The notes beneath the pieces were generated by a model that saw only the letters and a list, made by a program, of their open reading frames with translations, searched no databases and had not been told where the DNA came from. The translations under genes were made by a program, and so were the position numbers. 35,087 nt of DNA from Methanoculleus sp. EBM-46 (GTDB lineage Archaea > Halobacteriota > Methanomicrobia > Methanomicrobiales > Methanoculleaceae): the NCBI GenBank assembly GCA_001896715.1, contig MPOY01000108.1, positions 1-35,087 on the forward strand, written 5' to 3'. Positions 1 through 31,233 of the stretch are shown one piece after another (positions within the stretch are counted from its first letter, which is position 1; each line of letters starts with the position of its first letter).

Positions 1-567
1 CAGGTACCCATAAAGCCGGGCAGAAAGCCGGCCCGAGCGGTAGGCTTCTTCGTCGACGTCCATCACCTCGGAGTCGCGGCAGGCAACCCCCCCCGCCCGC
101 CGGATGAGGTCGGCCGCGGCCGCCGGGTTGACTGCAAAGACCGCCGAGTACATCTTCACACCGGCAGGGATCCCGAGGACGGGGACCGACCGCCCCACGG
201 CGTCGAAGACGTCGCGGGCAGTCCCGTCCCCGCCGCAGAAGACGATGAGGTCGAGACCGGCATCGAGAAACGCCCGGCACGCGGCCTTCGTATCGGCAGC
301 ACCCGTCGGGCCAGATGGCTGGTAGACGACGGTAAAGCGGTCGATACCGGCACCGGCAAGGGCATCCTCGCCCATCGGCGCGGCACAGGTATACCACGTA
401 ATATCGTCGTCTCTGAGAAGGGAGAGGGCCTGGACCGCCCGGTCGCGGGCGCGGGGGACGGCGCCGCGCAGGAGCGCCTCCGAGACCTTTCCATCCGTCC
501 CCGCGAGCCCCACGGCGCCGCCCATACCGGCGACGGGGTTGACCAGAAACCCGACGGTCTTTCTCAT
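1..567 (-). CDS. ATP-NAD kinase-like protein (COG3199), partial
   Basis: Open reading of 189 codons running off the left edge of the window, so the C-terminus is missing. The N-terminus starts [17 protein letters not shown], and a GGDGT nucleotide-binding motif lies at residues 112-116; both are typical of the NAD kinase/diacylglycerol kinase superfamily, here the archaeal COG3199 branch, which is predicted to phosphorylate NAD. The ATG overlaps the trpA stop codon by 4 bases (ATGA), so it is the last visible gene of the trp operon and is probably translated by coupling. A role in tryptophan synthesis is not implied by its sequence. Family assignment is fairly sure; the substrate is inferred. 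Confidence 0.82.
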   Translation of the reverse strand, partial: MRKTVGFLVNPVAGMGGAVGLAGTDGKVSEALLRGAVPRARDRAVQALSLLRDDDITWYTCAAPMGEDALAGAGIDRFTVVYQPSGPTGAADTKAACRAFLDAGLDLIVFCGGDGTARDVFDAVGRSVPVLGIPAGVKMYSAVFAVNPAAAADLIRRAGGVACRDSEVMDVDEEAYRSGRLSARLYGYL

Positions 568-1400
568 CCCTCTACTCTTTCGCGCCGGGGCATATCAGGA
601 TCGGGGTCGGGAGCGAATCCGCTCTTGAGCGCCCTGATTACGGCGCGGAGGACTTCGTGCATCCCGGCTTCGTCGCCGGGGTGCTCCTCGATTACGCGGA
701 CAAGCGCGCTCCCTACGATGACGCCGTCCGCACCGGCGGCGGCGACCGCAGCCACGTGTTCCGGGCGCGAGACCCCGAACCCGACGGCGAGCGGGAGGTC
801 CGTCTTCTCCCGCACCGCACCGACCAGCCCGGCGAGGTTCGGGGGGAGATGGTCGCGCTCGCCGGTCACCCCCTCAAGCGAGATCAGGTAGACGAACCCG
901 GAAGCGCCCCTGAGGATCTTTTGCCGGCGCTCCGGCGAGGTCGTCGGGGCGACGAGCACGATCCGGTCGATGCCGTGCCGGAGGGCGGAGGGTGCGACCT
1001 CGCCCGACTCCTCGGTGGGGAGGTCGACGATGAGGATACCGTCCGCACCGGCGGCGGCGGCCTCCGCAAAGAACCAGTCGACCCCCCGACGGTAGACGAT
1101 GTTGTAGTAGGTGAAGAGGACGAGGGGGAGGGGCGGCGCGTACTCCCTGACCCGCCGAACGAGGGCGAAGACGTCGTCCGGGGTGGTGCCCACACGGAGG
1201 GCGCGGACATGCGCCCGCTCGATCACGGGGCCGTCCGCCACCGGGTCGGAGTAGGGGACGGCGATCTCGAGGAGGTCGACGCCCGCATCGACCATCGTCT
1301 TCGCCACGCCAAACGACGTTTCTCTATCAGGGTCCCCGGCGACGGTGAACCCGACGAAGACCGGGTTCTTCCGGGCGAAAAGTGCCTCGATCCGGCTCAT
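564..1400 (-). CDS. trpA: Tryptophan synthase alpha chain
   Basis: 278 aa, normal length for TrpA. It cleaves indole-3-glycerol phosphate to indole and glyceraldehyde 3-phosphate within the alpha2beta2 complex. The catalytic acids are visible as Glu45 (in [11 protein letters not shown]) and Asp56 (in VADGP), and the phosphate-binding GFGVS and GVIVGSA segments lie in the C-terminal third. The start ATG overlaps the trpB stop by 4 bases and its own stop overlaps the next gene by 4 bases, consistent with translational coupling across the operon. The partner beta chain is TrpB at 1397-2569. Confidence 0.97.
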
Positions 1401-2569
1401 GCCGCGCCTCCGTGAACGTTCGCGACGTCTGCAACGTCCTTGTCGCCCCGGCCGGAGAGGTTGACGACGAGGATGTCGTCTTCATCGAGGTTGTCCGCCG
1501 CCCGGAGGGCGTAAGCGACCGCGTGGGCGGACTCGAGCGCCGGGATGATCCCTTCGACGCGGGAGAGGTAGCGGAAGGCGTGGAGCGCTTCGGCGTCGGT
1601 GACCGCCTCGTAGCGGACCCTTCCCGCGTCCTTCAGCATGGCGTGCTCCGGCCCGACGGAGGGATGGTCGAGGCCCGCGGCGATCGAGTGCGTCTCGAGC
1701 GCCTGGCCGTCGCCGTCCTGGAGGAGGTAGGAGAGCGCTCCCTGGAAGACCCCGACCGAACCGGCCGAGAGCGAAGCCCCGTGACGGCCGGAGATAAGTC
1801 CCTCGCCGCCCGCCTCCACGCCGACGAGCCGCACATCGTCGTTCACGAACGGGTAGAAGATGCCGATTGCGTTCGAACCCCCGCCGACGCAGGCGACGAC
1901 GATGTCGGGGAGCCGCCCTTCCCGCTCGAGGATCTGCCGCCGCGCCTCCTCGCCGATGACCGACTGGAAGTCCCGGACGATCCGGGGGAAGGGGTGCGGG
2001 CCGACGCAGGAGCCGAGCAGGTAGTGGGTATCCCCAAGGTTCGCCACCCAGTCGCGCATCGCCGCGTTAATGGCGTCTTTAAGTGTCCGCGTCCCGGAGG
2101 CGACCGGGACGACCCGGGCGCCGAGGAGCTCCATCCGAAAGACATTGAGCGCCTGGCGCCGGGTGTCCACCTCACCCATGTAGACCTCGACGGGCAGATC
2201 GAGAACTGCGCCCGCGATCGCCGTCGCGACGCCGTGCTGCCCGGCGCCGGTCTCGGCGATGAGCCGGCGCTTGCCCATGAACTTCGCCATGAGCGCCTGG
2301 CCGAGGGTGTTGTTCAGTTTGTGGGCGCCGCCGTGGAGGAGATCCTCCCTTTTCAGGTAGACACGGCAGCCGAGGTCGCGGGAGAGGTTCCCGCAGAAGG
2401 TAAGCGGTGTCTCCCGGCCGGCGTACTCGTGCAGGTACCAGGAGAGCCGGCGGGAGAACTCCGGGTCTTCGCGGACCCGGGCATAGGTCTCCTCAAGCTC
2501 GATCAACGCGCTCATCAGGGTTTCGGGCACGTACTGCCCGCCGTATACTCCGTATCGTCCTGCTCTCAT
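1397..2569 (-). CDS. trpB: Tryptophan synthase beta chain (TrpB1 type)
   Basis: 390 aa PLP enzyme that condenses indole with serine to give tryptophan. The PLP lysine is Lys84 in GAHKLNN, the catalytic Glu106 is in ETGAGQHG, and the phosphate-binding GGGSN is at 229-233. The frame is open upstream to 2755, but the start [16 protein letters not shown] at 2569 matches the family N-terminus and overlaps the trpF stop by 4 bases (ATGA), so the upstream extension is rejected. This is the alpha-partnered TrpB1 type; a second, TrpB2-type enzyme heads the same operon. Confidence 0.97.
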
Positions 2570-3138
2570 GGTTCTATCGTCCTGCATGCCTTCACGAACG
2601 CCCTCATGAGACGCTCGTCCTTGATCCCCGGCGCCGCCTCGACGCCCGAAGCGACGTCGACGGCGTAAGGCCTTACCGCCCGGATTGCCGCGGCGACGTT
2701 TCCGGGGGAAAGCCCCCCCGCGAGGATGACCGGCACCGGGGAGGCGGCCACGCATCTTCGTGCGTATTCGGGGTCGAACGCCCGCCCGGTGCCGCAGCTG
2801 CCGTCGACGACCACCGCGTCGCAGTCGTCCCGGAGAGCGTCGCCGGGAGCAAGCATCCGGATGACCCGGACCCCCGCGCCCCGGGGGAGGGCGAGGTCGC
2901 CTGCCACCTGGACCGCGTCCGGCCGCGAGGAGAGGATCGTCGCGAGGTCCTCCTCCCGGTCGGTCGAAGTGACGGCGACCGTGGTCACGAACGGCGGAAC
3001 CGCCGCGAATATTTCCCGCGCCAGCTCCGGGGTCACCGACCGGGGCGAGGGGCTCGCGAGCACCACGCCGATCGCATCGGCTCCAGCCGCGGCGGCGGCA
3101 CGGGCGTCGCCGACGGTGGTGATCCCGCAGATCTTCAC
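2566..3138 (-). CDS. trpF: Phosphoribosylanthranilate isomerase, GTG start
   Basis: 190 aa when started at the GTG at 3136-3138, which overlaps the trpC stop as GTGA exactly as the other operon junctions overlap as ATGA. A GGAGGG lies 12 bases upstream. This start gives MKICGITT, placing the catalytic cysteine at residue 4 as usual for TrpF. An open extension to 3168 adds ten residues that the family does not have. The enzyme converts N-(5'-phosphoribosyl)anthranilate to CdRP, the substrate of TrpC upstream. Catalytic Asp lies in the VDVASGVE segment. Confidence 0.93.
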
Positions 3139-3893
3139 GCGAATACGAATCCCTCCAGCCGTTTGCACCGATCTTTAGCCGACATCAGGGCGGACCCGAT
3201 CAGGAACGCATCGCAATGCCTCCCGAGGCTCCGGACATCGTAGGGCCACGTGATGCCGCTCTCGGAGACCACGATCCTCCCCGCGTCACGTGCCGCTTCC
3301 GCGAGGCGGAAGGTCGTCGAGAGGTCGATCCTCATCGTCTCCAGGTCGCGGTTGTTGATCCCGATAAGTCTCGCATCCGTCGCGAGAGCGCGTTCCATCT
3401 CGTTCCTGTCGTGGACCTCGACGAGCGCCTCAAGACCGAGCGCGTATGCCCCGTCGACGAACGCGGGGAGGCGATCCCCGAGCACCCGGGCGATCAGGAG
3501 GACGGCGTCGGCGCCGAGCGCCCGGGTTTCTGCAAGCTGGCGCTCGTCGACGATGAAGTCTTTCCTGAGGATCGGCACCGTTACCGCACGCCGCACCCGG
3601 ACGAGGTTTTCGATGCTCCCAAAAAAATAGGCAGGTTCGGTCAGCACCGAGAGCCCGACGGCTCCGGCGGCGGCGAACTCCCTCGCGATCGTCTCGGGGG
3701 CGCAGCCGTCGTGGATTCTGCCGCGCAACGGGGAGGCGTACTTCACCTCGGCGATGATCGCGCGTCTCTCCCGGCACGCACGTATGGCGGCCTCAAGGCT
3801 CCGGTGGGGCGGAGCGCCGGGATCGATCTCCGGAAGAGTGTCGAGGCTCTCCAGGCGCTCCCGGGTCGCCCTGACGATATCGTCGAGGATCAT
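3135..3893 (-). CDS. trpC: Indole-3-glycerol phosphate synthase
   Basis: 252 aa single-domain (beta/alpha)8 enzyme that decarboxylates and cyclises CdRP to indole-3-glycerol phosphate. Seen: [10 protein letters not shown] with Glu49 and Lys51, [10 protein letters not shown] with the second conserved lysine, GINNRDL, and SESGI. It is not fused to TrpF, unlike in enterobacteria. Starts with an ATG overlapping the trpD stop by 4 bases and its stop overlaps the trpF GTG. Confidence 0.97.
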
Positions 3894-4906
3894 ACCGGGC
3901 CTCCGGTCGCCTCGACCAGCCGGCGGAGCCGATCGAGCGCCGCGCCCGAGTCGATCGAAGCCTCGGCGCGGGCGATGCCGGCGGCGATGTCGCCGGCCTT
4001 TCCACCGAGGTAGATCGCCGCCCCGGCGTTGAGGGCGACGATGTCCCGGGCGGGGCCGTCCTCCCCCGCGAGGACGGAGAGGAGGAGCCGGGCGTTCTCC
4101 TCCGGCCCGCCGCCCCGGAGTGCGGCCACAGGCGAGCGCGGGATCCCGAACTCCATGCAGTCGAGCGTATACGTTTCGACCTCGCCGTCCCGGAGCTCCG
4201 CGACCGTCGTCGGCCCGGCCGTCGCGATCTCGTCGAGACCCGCGCCGTGGACCACCATCGCCCGCTCCACCCCGAGATCCCCGAGCACCCGCGCGACCGG
4301 AAGGGTCAGGCGGGGATCGTAGACGCCGAGGAGGTGAGCCCCGGCACCTGCCGGGTTCGTGAGGGGACCGAGGAGGTTGAAGACCGTCCGTATCCCGATC
4401 TCCTGCCGGGCCGATCTGGCGTACCGCATCGCCGGGTGGTAAGCCGGGGCGAAGAGGAAGGCGATCCCGGCGACCGCGAGGACCTCCCCGACCTTATCGG
4501 GCGGGATCGCGACGGAGACGCCGAGCGCCTCGAGGACGTCGGCCGAACCGCACCGGCTCGATACGCCCCGGTTTCCGTGCTTCACGACCGGGACGCCGGC
4601 CCCGGCCGCGACAAAGGCGGCCGCGGTGCTGATGTTGAACGTCCCCGCACCGTCGCCCCCGGTCCCGCAGGTATCCACCCGCATCTCCGGGGCGGGGAGA
4701 ACAACCGGGACGGCCGCCGCCCGCATCGTCCGGGCGAACGCCGCGATCTCCGTCTCGCTCTCCCCTTTCATCCGCAGTGCCGTGAGGAAACCGCCGACCT
4801 GGGCGGGAGTCGCCACGCCCCGCATGATCTCCTCCATCACCCTTCCCGCCTCGGCGGAGGTGAGGTCCGTGCCCGTGGAGATCCGGACAATCGCTTCGCG
4901 GATCAT
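3890..4906 (-). CDS. trpD: Anthranilate phosphoribosyltransferase
   Basis: 338 aa, standard length. Transfers phosphoribosyl from PRPP to anthranilate. The PRPP-binding loop GTGGDG is at residues 81-86, NIST at 91-94 and KHGNR at 109-113, all in their normal order. A separate protein, not fused to TrpG. Four-base ATGA overlap with trpG upstream and with trpC downstream. Confidence 0.97.
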   Translation of the reverse strand: MIREAIVRISTGTDLTSAEAGRVMEEIMRGVATPAQVGGFLTALRMKGESETEIAAFARTMRAAAVPVVLPAPEMRVDTCGTGGDGAGTFNISTAAAFVAAGAGVPVVKHGNRGVSSRCGSADVLEALGVSVAIPPDKVGEVLAVAGIAFLFAPAYHPAMRYARSARQEIGIRTVFNLLGPLTNPAGAGAHLLGVYDPRLTLPVARVLGDLGVERAMVVHGAGLDEIATAGPTTVAELRDGEVETYTLDCMEFGIPRSPVAALRGGGPEENARLLLSVLAGEDGPARDIVALNAGAAIYLGGKAGDIAAGIARAEASIDSGAALDRLRRLVEATGGPV

Positions 4907-5484
4907 GCCGCACCCCCCATACCGGAGAGGAAGTTTTTCATCAGGCGGTTCCCGTCGGGGGTGAGGATGCTCTCCGGGTGGAACTGCACCCCCTCGATCG
5001 GGAACTTCCGGTGCCGGACGCCCATGATCGCCCCGTCGTCGTCGCTTCGGGCCGTCACTTCGAGGCAGTCCGGGACGGTCGCCGGATCGATGACGAGCGA
5101 GTGGTAACGGGTCGCGACGAGGGGGCTTGCCACCCCCGTGTAGATCCCCGCACCGTCGTGCCGGATCGCCGACCGCTTCCCATGCATCAACCGATCCGCC
5201 CGAACGATGCGTGCACCGAACGCAAGGCCGATCGCCTGGTGGCCGAGGCAGACCCCGAGCGTCGGGACGGTTCGGCTGATCGTGCCGAGGACCTCCCGGT
5301 AGAGAGCGGAGTCCCGGGGATGCCCCGGGCCCGGCGAGAGGACGACACGGTCGAAGAGCACGGGACGGATCCGCTCAAACAGCGTATCGCTCTTCACCAC
5401 GACCGGCTCCGCCCCGAGCATACCGATCTGCTGGCAGAGGTTGAAGGTGAAGCTGTCGTAACTGTCGATGACGAGCACCCGCAT
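4903..5484 (-). CDS. trpG: Anthranilate synthase, glutamine amidotransferase subunit
   Basis: 193 aa class I glutamine amidotransferase that hydrolyses glutamine to supply ammonia to TrpE. The nucleophile Cys79 is in GVCLGHQAIG and the His/Glu pair is in FHPES near residue 169. The start MRVLVIDSYDSFTFNL is canonical; the ATG shares one base with the trpE stop (TGATG). The frame is open far upstream through trpE in another register, which is only a high-GC artefact. Confidence 0.97.
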   Translation of the reverse strand: MRVLVIDSYDSFTFNLCQQIGMLGAEPVVVKSDTLFERIRPVLFDRVVLSPGPGHPRDSALYREVLGTISRTVPTLGVCLGHQAIGLAFGARIVRADRLMHGKRSAIRHDGAGIYTGVASPLVATRYHSLVIDPATVPDCLEVTARSDDDGAIMGVRHRKFPIEGVQFHPESILTPDGNRLMKNFLSGMGGAA

Positions 5485-7003
5485 CACTCCGCCTCCGCGC
5501 CGAGCGCCGCAAGCATCGCCCGCCCTTTGTTCTCGGTCTCGGCCCACTCCCGGCCGGGGTCGGAGTCGGCCACGATCCCCGCCCCCACCTGGACGGAGGC
5601 GGCGCCGGCCTGCATGACGATCGTCCGGATGGCTATCGCGAGGTCCATCGTGCCGGAAAAACCGAGGTAACCGACGGCTCCCGCGTAGATCCCGCGCCGG
5701 AGCTTCTCCGTCTCGCCGATGATCTGCATCGCCCGAACCTTCGGGGCGCCCGAAACGGTCCCCGCGGGAAAACAGGAGCGTAAGGCGTCGAATCGGTCGA
5801 GCCCCTCCCGGAGGGTGCCCGTGACCGTCGAGGCGATATGCTGAACGTGCGAGAACCGCTCGATGGTCATGAACCCCTCCACCGAGACGCTCCCGTACCT
5901 CGATACCGCCCCGACGTCGTTTCTCGCCAGGTCGACGAGCATGATGTGTTCGGCTCGCTCTTTCTCGTCCGCGAGGAGCTCGGCCGCGAGCCGGTCGTCC
6001 TCCGCCGGGGTCCTTCCCCGCGGTCGGGTGCCGGCGATCGGGACGGTCGTCACCCGGCCGTCCTCCACCCGGACGAGCATCTCGGGACTGCTCCCGGCGA
6101 CCGCCATGTCCCCGAAGTCCAGGTAGTACATGTAAGGGCTCGGATTTTTCACCCGGAGCCGCCGGTAGACCTCGAACGGGTCGCCCGCGATACGGCAGGC
6201 GAGCCGCCGGGAGAGGACAGCCTGGAAGACGTCGCCTGCGGCGATATGCTCCTTGATCCGGAGAACCGCGCCCGAGAACTCTTCCGGGGTGCAGGACGAC
6301 GTCACAACCCCTGAGGAGGGGGGATAGCCCGTGCATGCCGGGGTGAGGTCGCGTATCCGGGCGAGCGCCCCGGCGATCGCCTCACGGGCCCGGTAGTACT
6401 CCTCCTCTGCGTCGGCTCCGTCGGTGACGAGCAGGTTCCCGACGACCGCGAGCCGTTCTCTCCGGTGGTCGAGGGCGAGGCAGTTTTGCGCCAGCATGAA
6501 CCGGGCGGCGGGCTCTTCGGAGCCCTCCGCCGTCTCCACCCGGGAGACCGGGTAGATGGAAGAGATGAGGTCGTAGGAGAAGTAGCCCGCGAGCCCCCCG
6601 GAGAACCCCCGGAGCGGCGAAGGGGCGACCCGGAACCGGGCCATGAACGAACGGGCGGCACCGATGGGATCGGCGGCCTCGACCTCCCCGGCGATCGCTC
6701 GGATGCGGGGATCGCCGGAGACGGTCAGCGCACCGTCGGAGGCCACGACGACCGTCGCAGCCGGGGCGGTGCAGATGAAGGAGTAACGGGCGGTCTTCCC
6801 GCTCCCTTCGAGCGACTCCAGCAGGAACCCGGGGCCATCCCGGAGGGACGCGTAAAGGTCCGCCGGCGAAGGTGCCGGAAGCGGGATCTCGGTAAATACG
6901 GGGACGATGAGAGGCAGACAGGCCGCGTCCGCTGCAGCGACGGCCGCTTCGTACCCCGGTTCGGTGTTCAGCTCTCTTGGAGCGCCGTCCAGTCCACCGG
7001 CAT
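5484..7003 (-). CDS. trpE: Anthranilate synthase component I, apparent 5' frameshift
   Basis: Aminase subunit that converts chorismate to anthranilate with TrpG. The chorismate-binding half is complete: MYYLDFGDMAVAGSSPEML, IAGTRPRG, DEKERAEHIMLVDLARND, FPAGTVSGAPK and GAVGYLG. The N-terminal feedback-site region (LLESLEGSGKTARYSF) is in the same frame, but that frame has no ATG, GTG or TTG upstream of it; the first is a GTG at 6746, too late. An ATG at 7001-7003, coupled to the trpB2 stop (TGATG), opens a different frame and reads 11 codons ([11 protein letters not shown]) to a TGA at 6968-6970. One extra base near 6971 would join the two into a 506-aa protein with a natural N-terminus. Either the strain carries a frameshift or the assembly lost a base. 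Coordinates span the reconstructed gene. Confidence 0.85.
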
Positions 7004-8361
7004 CACCCCGTCGCCGGCAGCCGGGCGAGCGACTCCTTGATCAGCTCGACCGGGTACTCGTAGTCGACGAGCCTTCCTCCAAAGTATGCCTCGTAGGAGG
7101 AGAAGTCGAAGTTCCCGTGCCCGGAGTTGTTGAAGAGGATCGTCTTTGCCTCCCCGGTCGTGCGGCACCGGACGGCCTCATCGATCGCGGCCTTCACGGC
7201 GTGGGCTGCCTCGGGCGCGACGATGATCCCCTCCGTCCGGGCAAACATCACGGCGGCATCGAAGACCTCGTTCTGGTGGTAGGCAACGGGCCGGACCACG
7301 CCATCGCGGGCGAGGCGGGAGACGAGCGGCGACATCCCGTGGTAGCGCAGGCCTCCGGCATGGATCGCCGGCGGGACGAAGTCGTGGCCGAGGGTGAACA
7401 TCCGCAGCATCGGCGTCAGCCCCGCGACATCCCCAAAGTCGTAAGCGTAGAGCCCCTTCGTCAGGGTCGGGCAGGCGAACGGCTCCACCGCGACGATATC
7501 GGTCTCGGGGTGTTTTCCCGTGATCTTATCGCCGGCAAACGGGAAGGAGAGCCCGGCGAAGTTGGAACCGCCGCCGACGCAACCGATCACCACATCGGGG
7601 TAGGCTTCCACCATGGCAAGCTGCTCCCGCGCCTCCTGGCCGATGATCGTCTGGTGAAGGCAGACGTGGTTGAGGACGGAGCCGAGCGCGTAGTTGGTGT
7701 TCTCGTGGTTTGCCGCATCCTCGACCGCCTCGGATATGGCGATGCCGAGGGAGCCCGGCGTATCCGGGGAGTGGGCGAGGACCGCCCGTCCCGACCGGGT
7801 CTTATCCGACGGGCTCGGTATGCATTCGGCACCGTAGACCTGCATCATGCTCTTACGGTAGGGTTTCTGCTCGTAGGAGGACCGGACCATGTAGACGGTG
7901 CACTCCATGTCAAAGAGGCCCGCTGCAAACGCAAGCGATGACCCCCACTGCCCCGCCCCGGTCTCGGTCGCGAGGCGCTCGACCCCCTCCTCGCGGTTGT
8001 AGTAGGCCTGGGGAATGGCGGTGTTGGGCTTGTGCGAGCCCGGCGGGCTCACGCCTTCCCACTTGAAGTAGATCTTTGCCGGGGTCTTCAAGGCGGCCTC
8101 GAGCCTTCGTGCCCGGTAGAGGGGGCTTGGTCTCCAGAGGGTGAGGATATCCCGGACCTCGCCGGGGATATCGATGTAGCGCTCCGTAGTCATCTCCTGC
8201 CGGATCAGTTCCATCGGAAATATGTGGCGGAGGTCATCGGGAACCGCCGGTTTCCCGGTCGCCGGGTGGAGGGGCGGATCCATGGGTGTCGGGAGATCCG
8301 CCTGGATGTTATACCACCGCTTCGGCATCTCCCCCTCGTCAAGGAGGATCTTCGTCTGCAT
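7003..8361 (-). CDS. trpB2: TrpB2-type tryptophan synthase beta chain
   Basis: 452 aa, longer than TrpB1 and with the TrpB2 pattern: PLP lysine Lys111 in [19 protein letters not shown], and [17 protein letters not shown]. TrpB2 enzymes make tryptophan from indole and serine (or phosphoserine in some archaea) and do not form the classical complex with TrpA; their role beside TrpB1 is usually indole salvage. The frame is open to 8394, but that ATG lies inside the TATA box. The ATG at 8359-8361 ([18 protein letters not shown]) is preferred and coincides with the predicted transcription start, so the mRNA is likely leaderless. First gene of the trp operon. Confidence 0.93.
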
Positions 8362-8373
8362 ACACCATGGTGT
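8362..8373. promoter_or_regulatory. 12-bp palindrome, candidate trp operator
   Basis: ACACCATGGTGT is a perfect 12-bp palindrome sitting between the TATA box and the trpB2 start codon, where a bound repressor would block transcription initiation. Known archaeal TrpY boxes (TGTACA) differ, so the cognate regulator is unknown. Confidence 0.4.
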
Positions 8374-8383
8374 GTTTCTGACA

Positions 8384-8395
8384 GATATATACATT
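8384..8395 (-). promoter_or_regulatory. TATA box of the trp operon
   Basis: On the minus strand the sequence reads CAATGTATATATCT, a good archaeal TATA box about 27 bases upstream of the trpB2 ATG at 8361. No other promoter-like sequence is seen in the overlapping genes that follow, so it probably drives the whole operon. Confidence 0.65.
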
Positions 8396-18075: not shown

Positions 18076-19017
18076 TCAGGTGAGATCCTGCACCTCCGAC
18101 GGATCGACTGCCGGTACATATCGGAAGACTCCTTCCGACTTGCCGCCCCACAGTGCGTTGCACGAAAAGACATACACCGGCACGATGTAGTTCTGGGGTT
18201 CGGTTTGTGTCGCCATCCAGTAGCCAAGCGAGATGTTGGTCACCACGAGTTTGTCGTAATTCTCTGGGAGTGGTTGGATCATGACGTTCCCCGCAGAGAG
18301 TCGCTGATATGCCTGCTCCGGAGTCACGATCTTCACATCGCGGACCGGTTCCGGATCGAATTTCCTGAGAGAATTCGAGACAGCTACCACCTCGCCGTTT
18401 TCTCCGACCGATACGCCGATCCCTGCGTTATGCACGGGGAGGCCCCCGATCTCTCCCACGAATGTTACATGTTTCGTGAGGATATACTCCGCTCCACCAG
18501 GGGTTGCGCTTCCATCTACAAACGAAGATCCGACACTCACATCCGTAGCGTGAATGTCACCGGAAAGAAGTCCGCGTTCCTTCAAGTAGTCCATCGCGAT
18601 CGCACGAGCCTCGTCGTCGGACGGAATGTCCGGCTGCCTGTTAGTGGCGTAAGGGTACGCCTTTGCCGGGATGATATACTGGAACGCTCCGGAGTTCGTG
18701 TAATAATACAACCTTCCATCGGTTCTTTCAGGCTTTTTCACGTCTCCCGATACCCCGAACAGATCGCCGATGCGCCGTTCCTCCGCGATGCTGTTGTCGG
18801 GGAGAACAGTCCGGTATACCGGGTACGAATCGTTCACATCCGGGAACGGTGCGGCGAGGACATAGGGTCCGGATAATCCAATGATATTCGGAATCGAAGG
18901 AACGTCTATGATTGGTGTTCCTGGCGTTGCCTGTTGCAGGCAGATCAACCCGACTCCTGCGGCGATGATTCCCAGTGCAACAACTGCGAATCCCATAAAT
19001 ATTACTTTTCTCTTCAT
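18076..19017 (-). CDS. Membrane-anchored protein of unknown function
   Basis: 313 aa, not recognised. An N-terminal hydrophobic helix (about residues 6-28, after MKRK) acts as signal or anchor and the rest is predicted to be outside. Two stretches pair a helix with a strand-rich part (SDDEARAIAMDYLKERGL and TPEQAYQRLSAGN), reminiscent of PepSY/YycI-like extracytoplasmic domains, but this is only a resemblance. The start has GGAG six bases upstream and lies 17 bases after the interrupted gene, so they form an operon. Its base composition is visibly lower in GC than the flanking genes, and it lies between the two 68-bp repeats. Confidence 0.75.
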   Translation of the reverse strand: MKRKVIFMGFAVVALGIIAAGVGLICLQQATPGTPIIDVPSIPNIIGLSGPYVLAAPFPDVNDSYPVYRTVLPDNSIAEERRIGDLFGVSGDVKKPERTDGRLYYYTNSGAFQYIIPAKAYPYATNRQPDIPSDDEARAIAMDYLKERGLLSGDIHATDVSVGSSFVDGSATPGGAEYILTKHVTFVGEIGGLPVHNAGIGVSVGENGEVVAVSNSLRKFDPEPVRDVKIVTPEQAYQRLSAGNVMIQPLPENYDKLVVTNISLGYWMATQTEPQNYIVPVYVFSCNALWGGKSEGVFRYVPAVDPSEVQDLT

Positions 19018-19034
19018 TTTCTACTCCAAAATTT

Positions 19035-20519
19035 TTAAGGAAGGCAAGTATATTGCCACTGGTAGACATATGGGTCGACATACAGATCTTCGTCTGATTC
19101 TACCGATCCGCTGCCCCAAATATGGTCGTTTTCGCAGTCCTTACTCTCACCGAGGACTCTTAGTCTGACGGGAGGCCCATGCGTCATGTCAGTCGCATTG
19201 AACCATGCATCTATGACTGTCTCTCCATTCAGGAGCAAAGTAGCAAGATTTTCCCCGTCATTCACGTCCCAACCTTCGGTCTCAAATCCGCAGACAAGAT
19301 GAACTCCGTTCATTGTATATGTCCTTGGTGGAGGGCATTTGAAGACCGTTTCTGTGGCGTTTGTGGTATGACACCCGTGGAGGAATATCCATTCCAGGTC
19401 ATTGTCCCCCCATGAGCAGTCTACGAAGTGAAAGGTTCCAAGAACGTCACTTAAAGCCATCGCACTAGCGCTGCCATGACTTGCGACAAGAGCAACGTCA
19501 ACCCCATCGATGTACTTCCAATCCTCGCCTCCCCATTCACTTGATGTAAATAGACCCCGAAAAACCTCGTGATCTCCGTACTCAAACATCGGGATCCAGC
19601 CTCCCTCTACAACAAGCGTGTTGTAGAATCCGCGAGAGGTATTGCTGCTTTGCGAGAGTGGATGTTGCCAATTAAAATCGTAATTATCCACCCACGTCAC
19701 CCCGACCTGGGGATAATCAAGATCGTGATAATCCTTCGTCGCTTTCAGAGGAACCAGAGTTGCTTCTTCCGTCATGGACACCCAGTACGCCTTTCCCGGG
19801 AACATCAGGCGCCGGTCGCTGTGGCTGCCTGTTGCGCCGCGGATCATGCTGACCTCGTAACCCTGCGTTTCCGCATCATAACCCTGTACCGTTACCCACG
19901 CGTTCCTGAGGGAAATGAGCGTATCCCGTGCAGATTCCTGGCTCAAACCATAGAATCCGACAACGTTCCAGCCGGAATAGAGGTGGTTTGTCACTCCCGT
20001 CTGCTCTTGGGTGGGCTTGAAGTAGAGCGGGATCTGGTACGACCCGTTTGCATAGATCCATATCCCCTCGAGCGGCCTGAACTCATCCTGGGCGCTCATC
20101 GATTCCCACTGGTCGCTCGAGCCGTTATATCGGAAAACCGAGTGGCCGGCCGTGTCCACCCCGGCGAAGATCGCCTGCATAGTATCATACCCGTCGACAA
20201 GCCAGAGGGGCGTCGAGACAAGATTCCATCCCGGATGCAGGATCAGCGTGTTCGACGCCGAATCGAAGGCGGTTGCCGGATACAACCCGCCCCGCGCTAT
20301 CGGCGAGCTCGGTGGCTCTCATCCCGGCGGATACGGGGGGACCAGATCCTCCACGGCGATGGGGCCGGCAGATGTCATAACTATCGCCGCGCTCCCTTCG
20401 TCCGGTGTAGCGGCGCCGGGGTCTGATTCCTCACCCAGTACGGGTGCAACCGCGATGCCGGCGACGAGCAGCACGATGAGCGCTCGCACCAGGTATCCGG
20501 AAATGTCTGTGGTTCGCAT
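19035..20519 (-). pseudogene. Secreted caspase-like (DUF6345-like) protein, interrupted by in-frame TGA
   Basis: A strong AAGGAGGT precedes the ATG at 20519. The first 66 codons encode a signal peptide (about 9-29) and a Pro-rich linker ending VPPYPPG, then a TGA (20319-20321). The same frame stays open for 427 more codons to 19035. The downstream part has no ATG start, no signal peptide and only a TTG without a ribosome site at 20285. It holds two PGWNLVS/SGWNVVG modules (each ending GIWIYA or KAYWVSM) and then a domain with VASHG and, about 37 residues later, FLHGC. That His-Gly and Cys pair is the pattern of clan CD (caspase/gingipain-like) peptidases, and I match it to DUF6345 from memory. 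Probably a nonsense mutation or a sequencing error. Confidence 0.7.
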
Positions 20520-27912: not shown

Positions 27913-29004
27913 TCAGTCCAGGAGGTCGTAGGTTGTCGTCCGCTGCCGGAGCATCCGGCCGAGATCTTCGGCCATCCGCCGCATATCGCCCGGGTCCAGG
28001 TAGCTGGTGCCCCGCGCGCCCGCTTCCCGGGATATGCTCTCCTCAAAGAGCGTCCCCCCGAGGTCGTCGGCGCCGGCAAGAAGCGCCGCCTCCGCCATCT
28101 TCGTCCCGAGCTTCACCCAGGACGCCTGGACGTGGTCGAAGTTGTCGAGGAAGAGACGGGCGACCGCAAACATAAGGAGATCCTCCCTCCCCGTCGCCCC
28201 AGCTCGTGCAAGACCCGCCCGGTAGAGAGGAGTATTCTCGTGGATGAACGAGAGGGGGACGAACTCGGTGAACCCATGGGTCTCGTCCTGGATCTCACGG
28301 AGGATGCCGAGGTGCCGGGCGCGGTCCGCATCGCTCTCGCAGTGACCGTACATGATCGTCGCGGTCGATGGGATACCAAGATAATGCGCCTCCCGGATGA
28401 CCCGGGCCCACGTCGCCGTATCGATCTTGTCAGGGCAGATCACTCTCCGGACGTCGTCCACCAGGACCTCGGCCGCCGTCCCGCAGAGTGTCGAGAGGCC
28501 GGCCGCTTTCATCGCGATGAGCACCTCCCGGGTGGAGAGACCGCTCCTCCTCGCGGCGTATGCCACCTCCATCGGGTTGCTCGCGTGGATGTGGACAGCG
28601 GGCGCTTCGTCCCGTATCCAGGAGTAGATATCGATGTAGGATTGGGCGTCAAACCCCGGGTGGAGGCCGCTCACCGTGCAGATCTCGGTCACGTTCCGCT
28701 CGCGCGCCTCCCGGGCCTTCTTTCGCACGACGGTCTCGTCGTAGCGATATACGTCGGGATCGCCTGGTTTTCGAGAGAACCCGCAGAACCCGCAGGCGTT
28801 CACGCAGAGGTTGGTCACGTTGATGTTCTGGTTCCGGATGTAGGTGACGACGTCACCTACTCTCTCTTCCCGGAGTTCATCGGCGGCAGCGGCGATCGCC
28901 CAGACATCCCGGTCCCTGGTCGCGAAGAGGCGGACGGCCTCCTCCTCCGTGAGCCGGTGGCCGGCAAGCGTATCGCTGAGCAGCTCTTGCAGCGGTGGCG
29001 TCAT
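27913..29004 (-). CDS. cofH: CofH, FO synthase subunit 2 (copy 1)
   Basis: 363 aa radical SAM enzyme; Cys67, Cys71 and Cys74 (CVNACGFC) bind the 4Fe-4S cluster and SAM. CofH joins tyrosine's aromatic part to 5-amino-6-ribitylaminouracil in the synthesis of the deazaflavin FO, the chromophore of F420. SGLHPGFDAQSY and TIMYGHCES are family motifs. It stands alone and divergent from the small gene at 29120. A paralogue lies 443 bases upstream of its start; the two are nearly identical in their last half but differ at residues 76-170. Confidence 0.9.
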   Translation of the reverse strand: MTPPLQELLSDTLAGHRLTEEEAVRLFATRDRDVWAIAAAADELREERVGDVVTYIRNQNINVTNLCVNACGFCGFSRKPGDPDVYRYDETVVRKKAREARERNVTEICTVSGLHPGFDAQSYIDIYSWIRDEAPAVHIHASNPMEVAYAARRSGLSTREVLIAMKAAGLSTLCGTAAEVLVDDVRRVICPDKIDTATWARVIREAHYLGIPSTATIMYGHCESDADRARHLGILREIQDETHGFTEFVPLSFIHENTPLYRAGLARAGATGREDLLMFAVARLFLDNFDHVQASWVKLGTKMAEAALLAGADDLGGTLFEESISREAGARGTSYLDPGDMRRMAEDLGRMLRQRTTTYDLLD

Positions 29005-29446: not shown

Positions 29447-30535
29447 TCACACCGCCCCGTAAGTCGTCGTCCGCTGCCGGAGCGTCCGGCCGATGTCTTG
29501 GGCAATCCGCTGCATATCGCGCGGGTCCAGGTAGTCGGCACCCTCGCTGCCGGCGTCGGTCGAGACGTCGTCGCAGAACATCGTCCCCCCGAGGTCGTCG
29601 GCGCCGGCAAGAAGCGCCGCTTCCGCCATCTTCGTTCCCACCTTCCCCCAGGAGACCTGGACGTGGTCGAAGTTGTCGAGGAAGAGGCGGGCGACAGCGA
29701 CCATCAGGATATCCTCTCTCCCCGTCGCCCCCGCTCGCGCGAGACCCGCCCGGTAGAGAGCGGTATTCTCGTGGATGAACGAGAGGGGGATGAACTCGGT
29801 GAACCCATGGGTCTCGTCCTGGATCTCGCGGAGGATGCCGAGATGCCGGGCGCGGTCCGCATCGCTCTCGCAGTGGCCGTACATGATCGTCGCGGTCGAT
29901 CGGATCCCGAGATGGTGCGCCTCCCGGATGACCCGGACCCATGTCGCCGTATCGCATTTCCTCGGGCAGATGATTCGCCGGACGCTGTCCACCAGGATCT
30001 CGGCCGCCGTCCCCTGCAGGGTTCCAAGACCCGCTTCCCGGAGCCGCTCGATGGCTGCAACGGTCGAGGTGCCGCTCTGTGCCGCCGCCCAGACTATCTC
30101 GTCCGGGCTTGCGGTGTGGATATCCACGCCGGGGGCGGCCTCCCGCACGGAGGAGATGAGGTCGGCATAAGAGTCGAGCGTGTAGTCGGGGTGCACCCCC
30201 GAGAGGAGGCAGATCTCGGTGACGTTCCTCTCACGCGCCGTCCGGGCCTTCTCCCGCACGGTCGCGGGGTCGTCATAAAATGCGCCCGGATCATCAGCCC
30301 GCCGCCCGAATCCGCAGAACCCGCAGAGGTTCTTGCATATGTTGGTGACGTGGATGTTCTGGTTTCGGACGTAGGTGACGGCGTCGCCTGCCCTCTCCTC
30401 CCGGAGCTCGTCGGCGGCGGCGGCGATCTTCCAGATATCCCGGCCGCGGGTTGTGAACAGCTGCACCGCCTCCTCCTCGGTGAGGCGGTGGCCGGCGAGC
30501 GTATCGCAAAGCAGGGTATGCAGTGAGTGCGGCAT
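29447..30535 (-). CDS. cofH: CofH paralogue (copy 2)
   Basis: 362 aa from MPHSLHTLLCDTLAGHRL; radical SAM cysteines 67, 71 and 74 (CKNLCGFC). Family and probable reaction as for copy 1, but the region that follows the cluster (about 76-170) is quite different: SGVHPDYTLDSY and IHTASPDEIVWAA here. Because that part of the barrel surrounds the substrates, it might accept another partner. The last 190 residues match copy 1 almost fully. The longer frame to 30706 is rejected. The stop is ten bases from the convergent small gene. Confidence 0.88.
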   Translation of the reverse strand: MPHSLHTLLCDTLAGHRLTEEEAVQLFTTRGRDIWKIAAAADELREERAGDAVTYVRNQNIHVTNICKNLCGFCGFGRRADDPGAFYDDPATVREKARTARERNVTEICLLSGVHPDYTLDSYADLISSVREAAPGVDIHTASPDEIVWAAAQSGTSTVAAIERLREAGLGTLQGTAAEILVDSVRRIICPRKCDTATWVRVIREAHHLGIRSTATIMYGHCESDADRARHLGILREIQDETHGFTEFIPLSFIHENTALYRAGLARAGATGREDILMVAVARLFLDNFDHVQVSWGKVGTKMAEAALLAGADDLGGTMFCDDVSTDAGSEGADYLDPRDMQRIAQDIGRTLRQRTTTYGAV

Positions 30536-30564
30536 CGTAAACAACTCTATTGATCTCCCGGGAC

Positions 30565-31233
30565 TTATTCCTCTTTCCCTTTGCGCCGCGCAAGGATGAG
30601 ATCGTGTATGAGGATGATGACGACGACGATGACGGCAAACTCCGCGAGGTGGAGGGGGAGGTAGCCCACGAGCGGCACTGCAACGAGGGCTTTTCCGACG
30701 ATCCACTCCTTCCTGACCGGCTCGATCAGGCCGATGCCTGCTATGCGGAGGTTCCCCTGATCGATATAGGGGTTGTTGTCCCCTTTGGTGATGTAGCCGC
30801 CGTGCGGGTCGGCGTAGAACTGTGCAAGCCCCGACTCCTCCACGGCGGCGGTATCGACGTAGGTCATCGCCCGGTGAATGATCGGATGGACGGAGTCGGC
30901 GCCGTTCGGGCGGTAGACGATCACGTCGCCGTAATCCCCAAACGACGAGTGCCCGGTTTGCTGCCCCTCGACCCAGGTCGTGAGCCCGCCGAACCGGTCC
31001 TCATCGACGACGAGGACCAGGTCGCCGACGTTCATGTGGGGAACCATGCTCTCCGACTCGATCGTGACCACGGCAGGCCAGGTGCCGGCAAAGAGGTAGA
31101 GGGCGAGAGCGATACCGCCCACGACCACGACGACCCAGAGGAGGTCGCGGGCGAGGGAGACGACCCGGTTATCGCTCTCCCGGAACGCCGCGAGGATCGA
31201 TGCTACACGCTGCAGCAGGGTGACATCCGACAT
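30565..31233 (-). CDS. Signal peptidase I, archaeal type
   Basis: 222 aa. N-terminal transmembrane helix (about 31-50), then the S26 domain with nucleophile Ser62 in ESESMVPHM and, in place of the bacterial lysine, His120 in HPIIHRAM, as in archaeal and ER Sec11 enzymes. KGDNNPYID is box E. A second helix (about 196-214) anchors the C-terminus. It removes signal peptides from exported proteins such as the COG1361 protein. A TATA box at 31260-31268 predicts a nearly leaderless message. Confidence 0.94.
   Translation of the reverse strand: MSDVTLLQRVASILAAFRESDNRVVSLARDLLWVVVVVGGIALALYLFAGTWPAVVTIESESMVPHMNVGDLVLVVDEDRFGGLTTWVEGQQTGHSSFGDYGDVIVYRPNGADSVHPIIHRAMTYVDTAAVEESGLAQFYADPHGGYITKGDNNPYIDQGNLRIAGIGLIEPVRKEWIVGKALVAVPLVGYLPLHLAEFAVIVVVIILIHDLILARRKGKEE

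Follow-up and report, generated by a model that had tools for sequence, protein, structure and literature searches.

A single in-frame TGA in a predicted secreted DUF6345 protein gene of Methanoculleus and its counterpart in another family of the order

The window analysed here is a stretch of 35,087 nucleotides from Methanoculleus sp. EBM-46 (GCA_001896715.1, contig MPOY01000108.1, positions 1 to 35,087), whose own assembly, G000, comprises 657 contigs and is 85.5% complete; G-numbers denote the genomes and L-numbers the loci compared, with G010 and G020 belonging to the same genus as G000. On the minus strand, an ATG at 20519-20517, preceded by AAAGGAGGTAACG, i.e., a strong ribosome site, opens a 66-codon ORF that starts MRTTDISGYLVRALIVLLVAGIAVAPVLGEES and ends VEDLVPPYPPG. 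This first segment (20322..20519, minus strand; ribosome site GGAGGTAA) combines a signal peptide, as judged by inspection, with an acidic and Pro-rich linker, and is 89% identical in G010. It is ended by a TGA (20321-20319, minus strand), after which that frame continues uninterrupted through 427 codons to a TAA at 19037-19035, just as the earlier note had described. The body (19035..20318, minus strand) contains a linker, domain 1 (about residues 20-193) and a DUF6345 domain (body residues 209-410; 19089..19694, minus strand). Its nearest candidate start, a TTG at 20283..20285 (minus strand) that lies 33 nt past the TGA, is in the body frame and heads a 416-aa ORF. Downstream by 17 nt is a partner gene (18076..19017, minus strand) with an N-terminal hydrophobic segment (by inspection) and an FTP propeptide motif, the latter being a weak match (PF07504, E=1.8e-4, 21.8 bits against a cut-off of 21). 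No second stop or frameshift was seen in the G000 gene in the frame from ATG to TAA.

The C-terminal half of the body scores well above the Pfam gathering cut-off for DUF6345 (PF19872; E=2.4e-32, 112.6 bits against 26.9) and can be counted as a member of that family, but in G000 it is fused to domain 1 and cut off from the signal peptide by the stop. Domain 1, of about 170 residues, has seven more matches within the same genome and is C-terminal in the three that were followed to their stop (L002, L005, L008), as it also is in L016 and L072, two larger proteins from relatives; the single TGA recorded for each of those three own-genome loci was considered as repeated recoding and discarded, being the terminal stop in all three. 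The body was matched at E<=0.001 in 43 of the 61 genomes searched (own included), mostly via domain 1 alone. These matches, the PF19872 assignment and the dN/dS values below 1 presented below identify the body as genuine coding sequence. Two of its residues, His281 and Cys316, are invariant in seven aligned sequences, and together with a GHG...C pattern they suggested that DUF6345 might be a caspase-like (clan CD) peptidase; neither a PDB sequence search nor Pfam supported such an assignment. The AlphaFold models are of low confidence (mean pLDDT 29.0 and 30.6), and a literature search on DUF6345 found no paper.

The family is patchily distributed, with matches at E<=1e-60 in 8 of the order's 232 genomes, G000 among them; the class-level and order-level sets consist of the same 232 genomes. 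A phylum search of 392 genomes from the larger group gave, among the matches listed, no additional homologue combining the linker with the two domains, and a match in G462 with one TGA and one TAA turned out to be an intact DUF6345-only gene plus a chance extension. No relative was found among viral contigs and plasmids. Nine loci unite domain 1 with DUF6345 (G000, G010, G020, G049, G009, G012, G026, G220 and L039; L040 and L041 are apparently G020 and G009, as their identities and translations match, and are counted once). By inspection, the N-terminus is intact in three of the nine (G010, G012, L039) and carries the TGA in two (G000, G049); elsewhere it is frameshifted (G020), interrupted upstream of a PKD repeat (G026), devoid of a recognisable signal peptide (G220) or lost off the end of the contig (G009). 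A comparable linker is absent from G012, G026 and G220, and five linkers are readable. In G010, the same locus is a single intact gene of 500 codons with PPYPPG-W-EPPRSP and the codon TGG, in agreement with the prior claim of one gene interrupted by a single stop. G020 likewise has TGG, although there an upstream insertion upsets the frame, a 26-base gap lies at the TGG and a TAG stands in the body, while L039 has PPLPPG-Y with the codon TAT in an intact ORF. The tally is therefore two TGA (G000, G049), two TGG and one TAT. Judged from these homologues, this is a single gene predicted to encode a signal peptide, a PP-x-PPG linker, a surface domain and DUF6345. As TGG occurs in G010 and G020 and TAT in L039, TGG (Trp), one transition away from TGA, is the most likely original codon, rather than the CGA or GGA that had been proposed; nor does the proposal that the residue at the stop is dispensable sit well with an aromatic residue in all three readable homologues without the TGA.

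A DNA pattern for PP-x-PPG-TGR gave 25 matches in 23 of the 232 genomes, against 2 for a reversed control. Four fall within this gene family (G000, G049, G010, G020); on inspection by eye, the remaining 21 belong to different genes or frames, and several represent the same place in related species. At L015 (G026, about 1249-1500), the frame is broken just upstream of the PKD-like repeat beside a His-Gln run (HQHQHQHQH), which is possibly a slippage-prone repeat. The upstream region and signal peptide at L076 (G016, about 269-1500) are similar, with 91% identity over 32 residues, but the secreted protein that follows them is apparently unrelated, as if leaders had been exchanged among genes.

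A downstream partner scan of 11 loci found the gene open and almost full-length in nine (L009, L011, L012, L013, L014, L017, L037, L039, L046), with no match at L010 and a match at L015 that sits before the DUF6345 gene (gene 1). Among the seven partners compared, identity is 50-57% within a group of G000, G220 and L039 and 61-82% within one of G010, G020, G009 and G049, against 24-32% between the groups, which are the same two as those of DUF6345. At 18076-20519, as at L011-L014, L039 and L046, a DUF6345 gene and an FTP-motif gene are paired, with two subtypes that travel together. G000 and G010 agree in the upstream region, in the signal peptide and over much of domain 1 but differ in their DUF6345/partner subtypes, so that the cassette may be swapped by recombination.

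Pairwise dN/dS (Nei-Gojobori) is below 1 wherever dS is unsaturated. For domain 1, the values for G000 are 0.40 with G010, 0.32 with G009, 0.51 with G020 and 0.22 with G049; those for G049 are 0.19 with G010, 0.20 with G009 and 0.22 with G020; and the other pairs give 0.25 (G009-G010), 0.37 (G010-G020) and 0.52 (G009-G020). For DUF6345, where G000 has another subtype and its comparisons are saturated, G049 gives 0.12 with G010, 0.16 with G009 and 0.14 with G020, and the other pairs 0.22 (G009-G010), 0.21 (G010-G020) and 0.17 (G009-G020). The partner gene has 0.25 in each of G010-G049, G009-G049 and G009-G010, so that the body of G049, at 0.12-0.20 against G010 and G009, lies below the partner gene in the same pairs and shows no relaxation. 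Constraint has acted on the body over its history; on branches as long as those of the G049 pairs (dS of 0.91-0.98), a young stop in G049 would nonetheless leave no trace. The domain 1 values of G000 (0.40 and 0.32) exceed that of G009-G010 (0.25), a weak hint of relaxation, although they may have been raised by mosaic tracts. Branch counts (N/S) of G000 against G010 are 26.5/17.5 versus 8.5/7.5 with G009 as outgroup and 26.5/12.5 versus 8.0/8.0 with G049, but the two branches are alike with G020 (13.0/12.0 versus 17.5/13.5); where G020 and G009 agree, they are 11.0/10.0 versus 5.0/7.0. Such counts are upset by the sharing of mosaic blocks, e.g., FYGLSQESARDTLISL common to G000 and G020 and FWDVHQACARDMLLPL common to G010, G009 and G049.

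The second TGA lies in G049, a single-contig genome from another family of the order, with PPHPPG-TGA-GPSESP followed by 427 open codons up to its own stop; neither of the two copies has a second stop in frame. The earlier note had held that homologues likewise divided into two ORFs would speak against its reading, and G049 does have this arrangement, which falls short of proof of two genes; the shared TGA also lowers the likelihood that a sequencing error or a unique mutation is responsible. This copy came from searching many genomes (61 in one search and 232 in another). When the first segment was searched against 231 genomes, G000, G010, G020 and G016 were clear and three others weak, and G049 was not matched at E<=0.001, which places the two TGA copies at a great distance from each other and makes a recent transfer between G000 and G049 unlikely. 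In the G010 gene, 123 of the 500 codons are stop-prone, 19 of these being TGG; with a transition bias of 1 to 8, two random nonsense mutations would fall on one codon (any codon) in 0.9-2.2% of cases and a second on this specific TGA codon in 1.2-3.1%. Approximate arithmetic that counts a third nonsense event (the TAG of G020) gives about 3-7%, and since that event is known in the family, the fair chance figure is nearer this range. The shared codon is thus suggestive but not decisive. By the estimate of Belinky et al. 2021 (PMC7918605), only about 1.5% of in-frame stops with an orthologous counterpart are independent in origin, and reversals to sense are stressed; the figure favours common descent over recurrence, though it concerns closely related sequences. 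Following those authors, the TGA could be old and the TGG of G010 and G020 a reversal. The present case resembles theirs in having a single stop in a conserved frame, the same codon in more than one genome and dN/dS below 1; it differs in that their cases mostly have no or few mismatches within 30 bases, whereas the TGA copies here, from archaea of two different families, have diverged strongly.

The reading that we hold to be probable, by a modest measure, is that of an ordinary nonsense-interrupted gene, with the TGA of G049 as a recurrence. One gene for a secreted protein (signal peptide, linker, surface domain and DUF6345) would carry a TGG-to-TGA nonsense codon, which in G000 would be young; most translation would end after 66 codons and the protein would be largely lost, with tRNA-Trp misreading of UGA perhaps yielding a trace of the full-length product. 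The stop interrupts the gene where close relatives have a Trp codon: the orthologues do have a sense codon there (TGG in G010 and G020, TAT in L039), yet G049 has TGA. This is ranked first because gene 1 is frequently damaged at its N-terminus in other genomes, within a patchy and mosaic family, which gives decay a higher prior; the TGA of G049, which would be a second, independent nonsense mutation at the same codon, is taken as a recurrence because several genomes have a damaged or missing N-terminal part. That the stop is instead an error of sequencing or assembly is quite improbable: the assembly is fragmented and TGA differs from TGG by one base, but the gene is otherwise free of stops and frameshifts and the same TGA recurs in a one-contig genome of another family. 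An improbable alternative has two products, namely a 66-codon secreted peptide and a separate body reinitiated at the TTG 20285. The distance of 33 nt from the stop would suit it, and G049 has GGAGG 4 nt ahead of the matching TTG; in G000, however, no clear ribosome site was found in the preceding sequence GGGGCGGG, as the claim that the body has no good start of its own had anticipated, the same TTG serves as a conserved Leu codon of the body in G049 and in the intact gene of G010, and the body would be made without the signal peptide that is present (by inspection) in G010, L039 and the DUF6345-only L037, L154, L159 and L160.

The remaining alternatives turn on how UGA is decoded. That it specifies selenocysteine or is reassigned is very improbable indeed. 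Beyond the in-frame UGA itself, PF05889 (SepSecS) is above cut-off in all three genomes (G000, G010, G049), but its matches are uninformative because the model also matches Bacillus and Synechococcus. The archaeal Sec kinase (TIGR03574, above cut-off in 1 of 14 control genomes) had no match in any of the three (G000 being 85.5% complete), and Cys occurs in none of the three readable relatives that lack the TGA, the residue there being Trp or Tyr; the view that selenocysteine was unlikely has held up. As for reassignment to Trp, UGA is in regular use as a terminator, TGA being the commonest one, at 19 of the 25 ORFs of the window that were selected by eye as genuine. ARAGORN calls on Rfam tRNA matches in G049 and G000 include no UCA anticodon, in a survey where tRNA-Trp is absent from the calls, 2 of 70 loci (L142, L148) have none and some of the calls with introns look wrong; four matches to a UCA-anticodon pattern included no UCA tRNA among the three inspected, the fourth (L164) being judged from its sequence alone.

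Doubtful, though a serious possibility, is a maintained UGA readthrough, in which the stop would act as a translational throttle that near-cognate tRNA-Trp reads as Trp in a fraction of passes, so that little secreted DUF6345 protein is made. The same-codon TGA in two families, ahead of open bodies, speaks for this, as do the constraint on the body and an ancestral codon that is likely Trp, such that misreading by tRNA-Trp restores the residue. It is weakened by the number of sequences (n=2, or 2 of 5 readable linkers, with coding sequence downstream), by the TGG of two same-genus relatives and by the decay of the family in other genomes. The RNA fold around the stop is not unusual (z 0.13), and several third positions around it differ between the two copies, the conserved context being limited to GGA-TGA-G; we know of no archaeal signals for such stop readthrough. 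According to Belinky et al. 2021 (PMC7918605), many in-frame stops do not mark pseudogenes and orthologous ones seldom arise independently; low-frequency decoding of UGA as Trp in E. coli is also cited there, but most such stops are held to be short-lived and the vast majority are assumed not to be functional recoding. According to a 2021 review (PMC8211752), the demonstrated archaeal stop readthrough is the incorporation of Sec and Pyl, which the present locus resembles in having an in-frame stop in a methanogen and from which it differs in that the Sec kinase was not found, the codon is UGA and not UAG, and relatives have an aromatic residue.

If the gene is of the ordinary interrupted kind, the annotation would be corrected to that of one gene, broken by a stop at what was likely a Trp codon in the ancestor; should the stop be maintained, this would be archaeal stop readthrough with a standard amino acid, outside selenocysteine and pyrrolysine. 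The broader proposition that Methanomicrobiales keep a UGA at the post-signal-peptide Trp codon of a surface DUF6345 protein, with low-efficiency Trp readthrough as dosage control, we regard as unlikely. The shared TGA is nevertheless worth testing, and its occurrence in two families makes the maintained-stop reading directly testable; sequence comparison does not yet demonstrate recoding.

Elsewhere in the window, 564-8394 holds what we take to be a tryptophan-biosynthesis-like gene cluster, presumably with a second TrpB-like ORF at 7003-8394. Two similar adjoining ORFs at 27913-29004 and 29447-30706, which by their motifs are presumably radical-SAM-like, have long near-identical stretches in common and apparently represent a tandem duplication.
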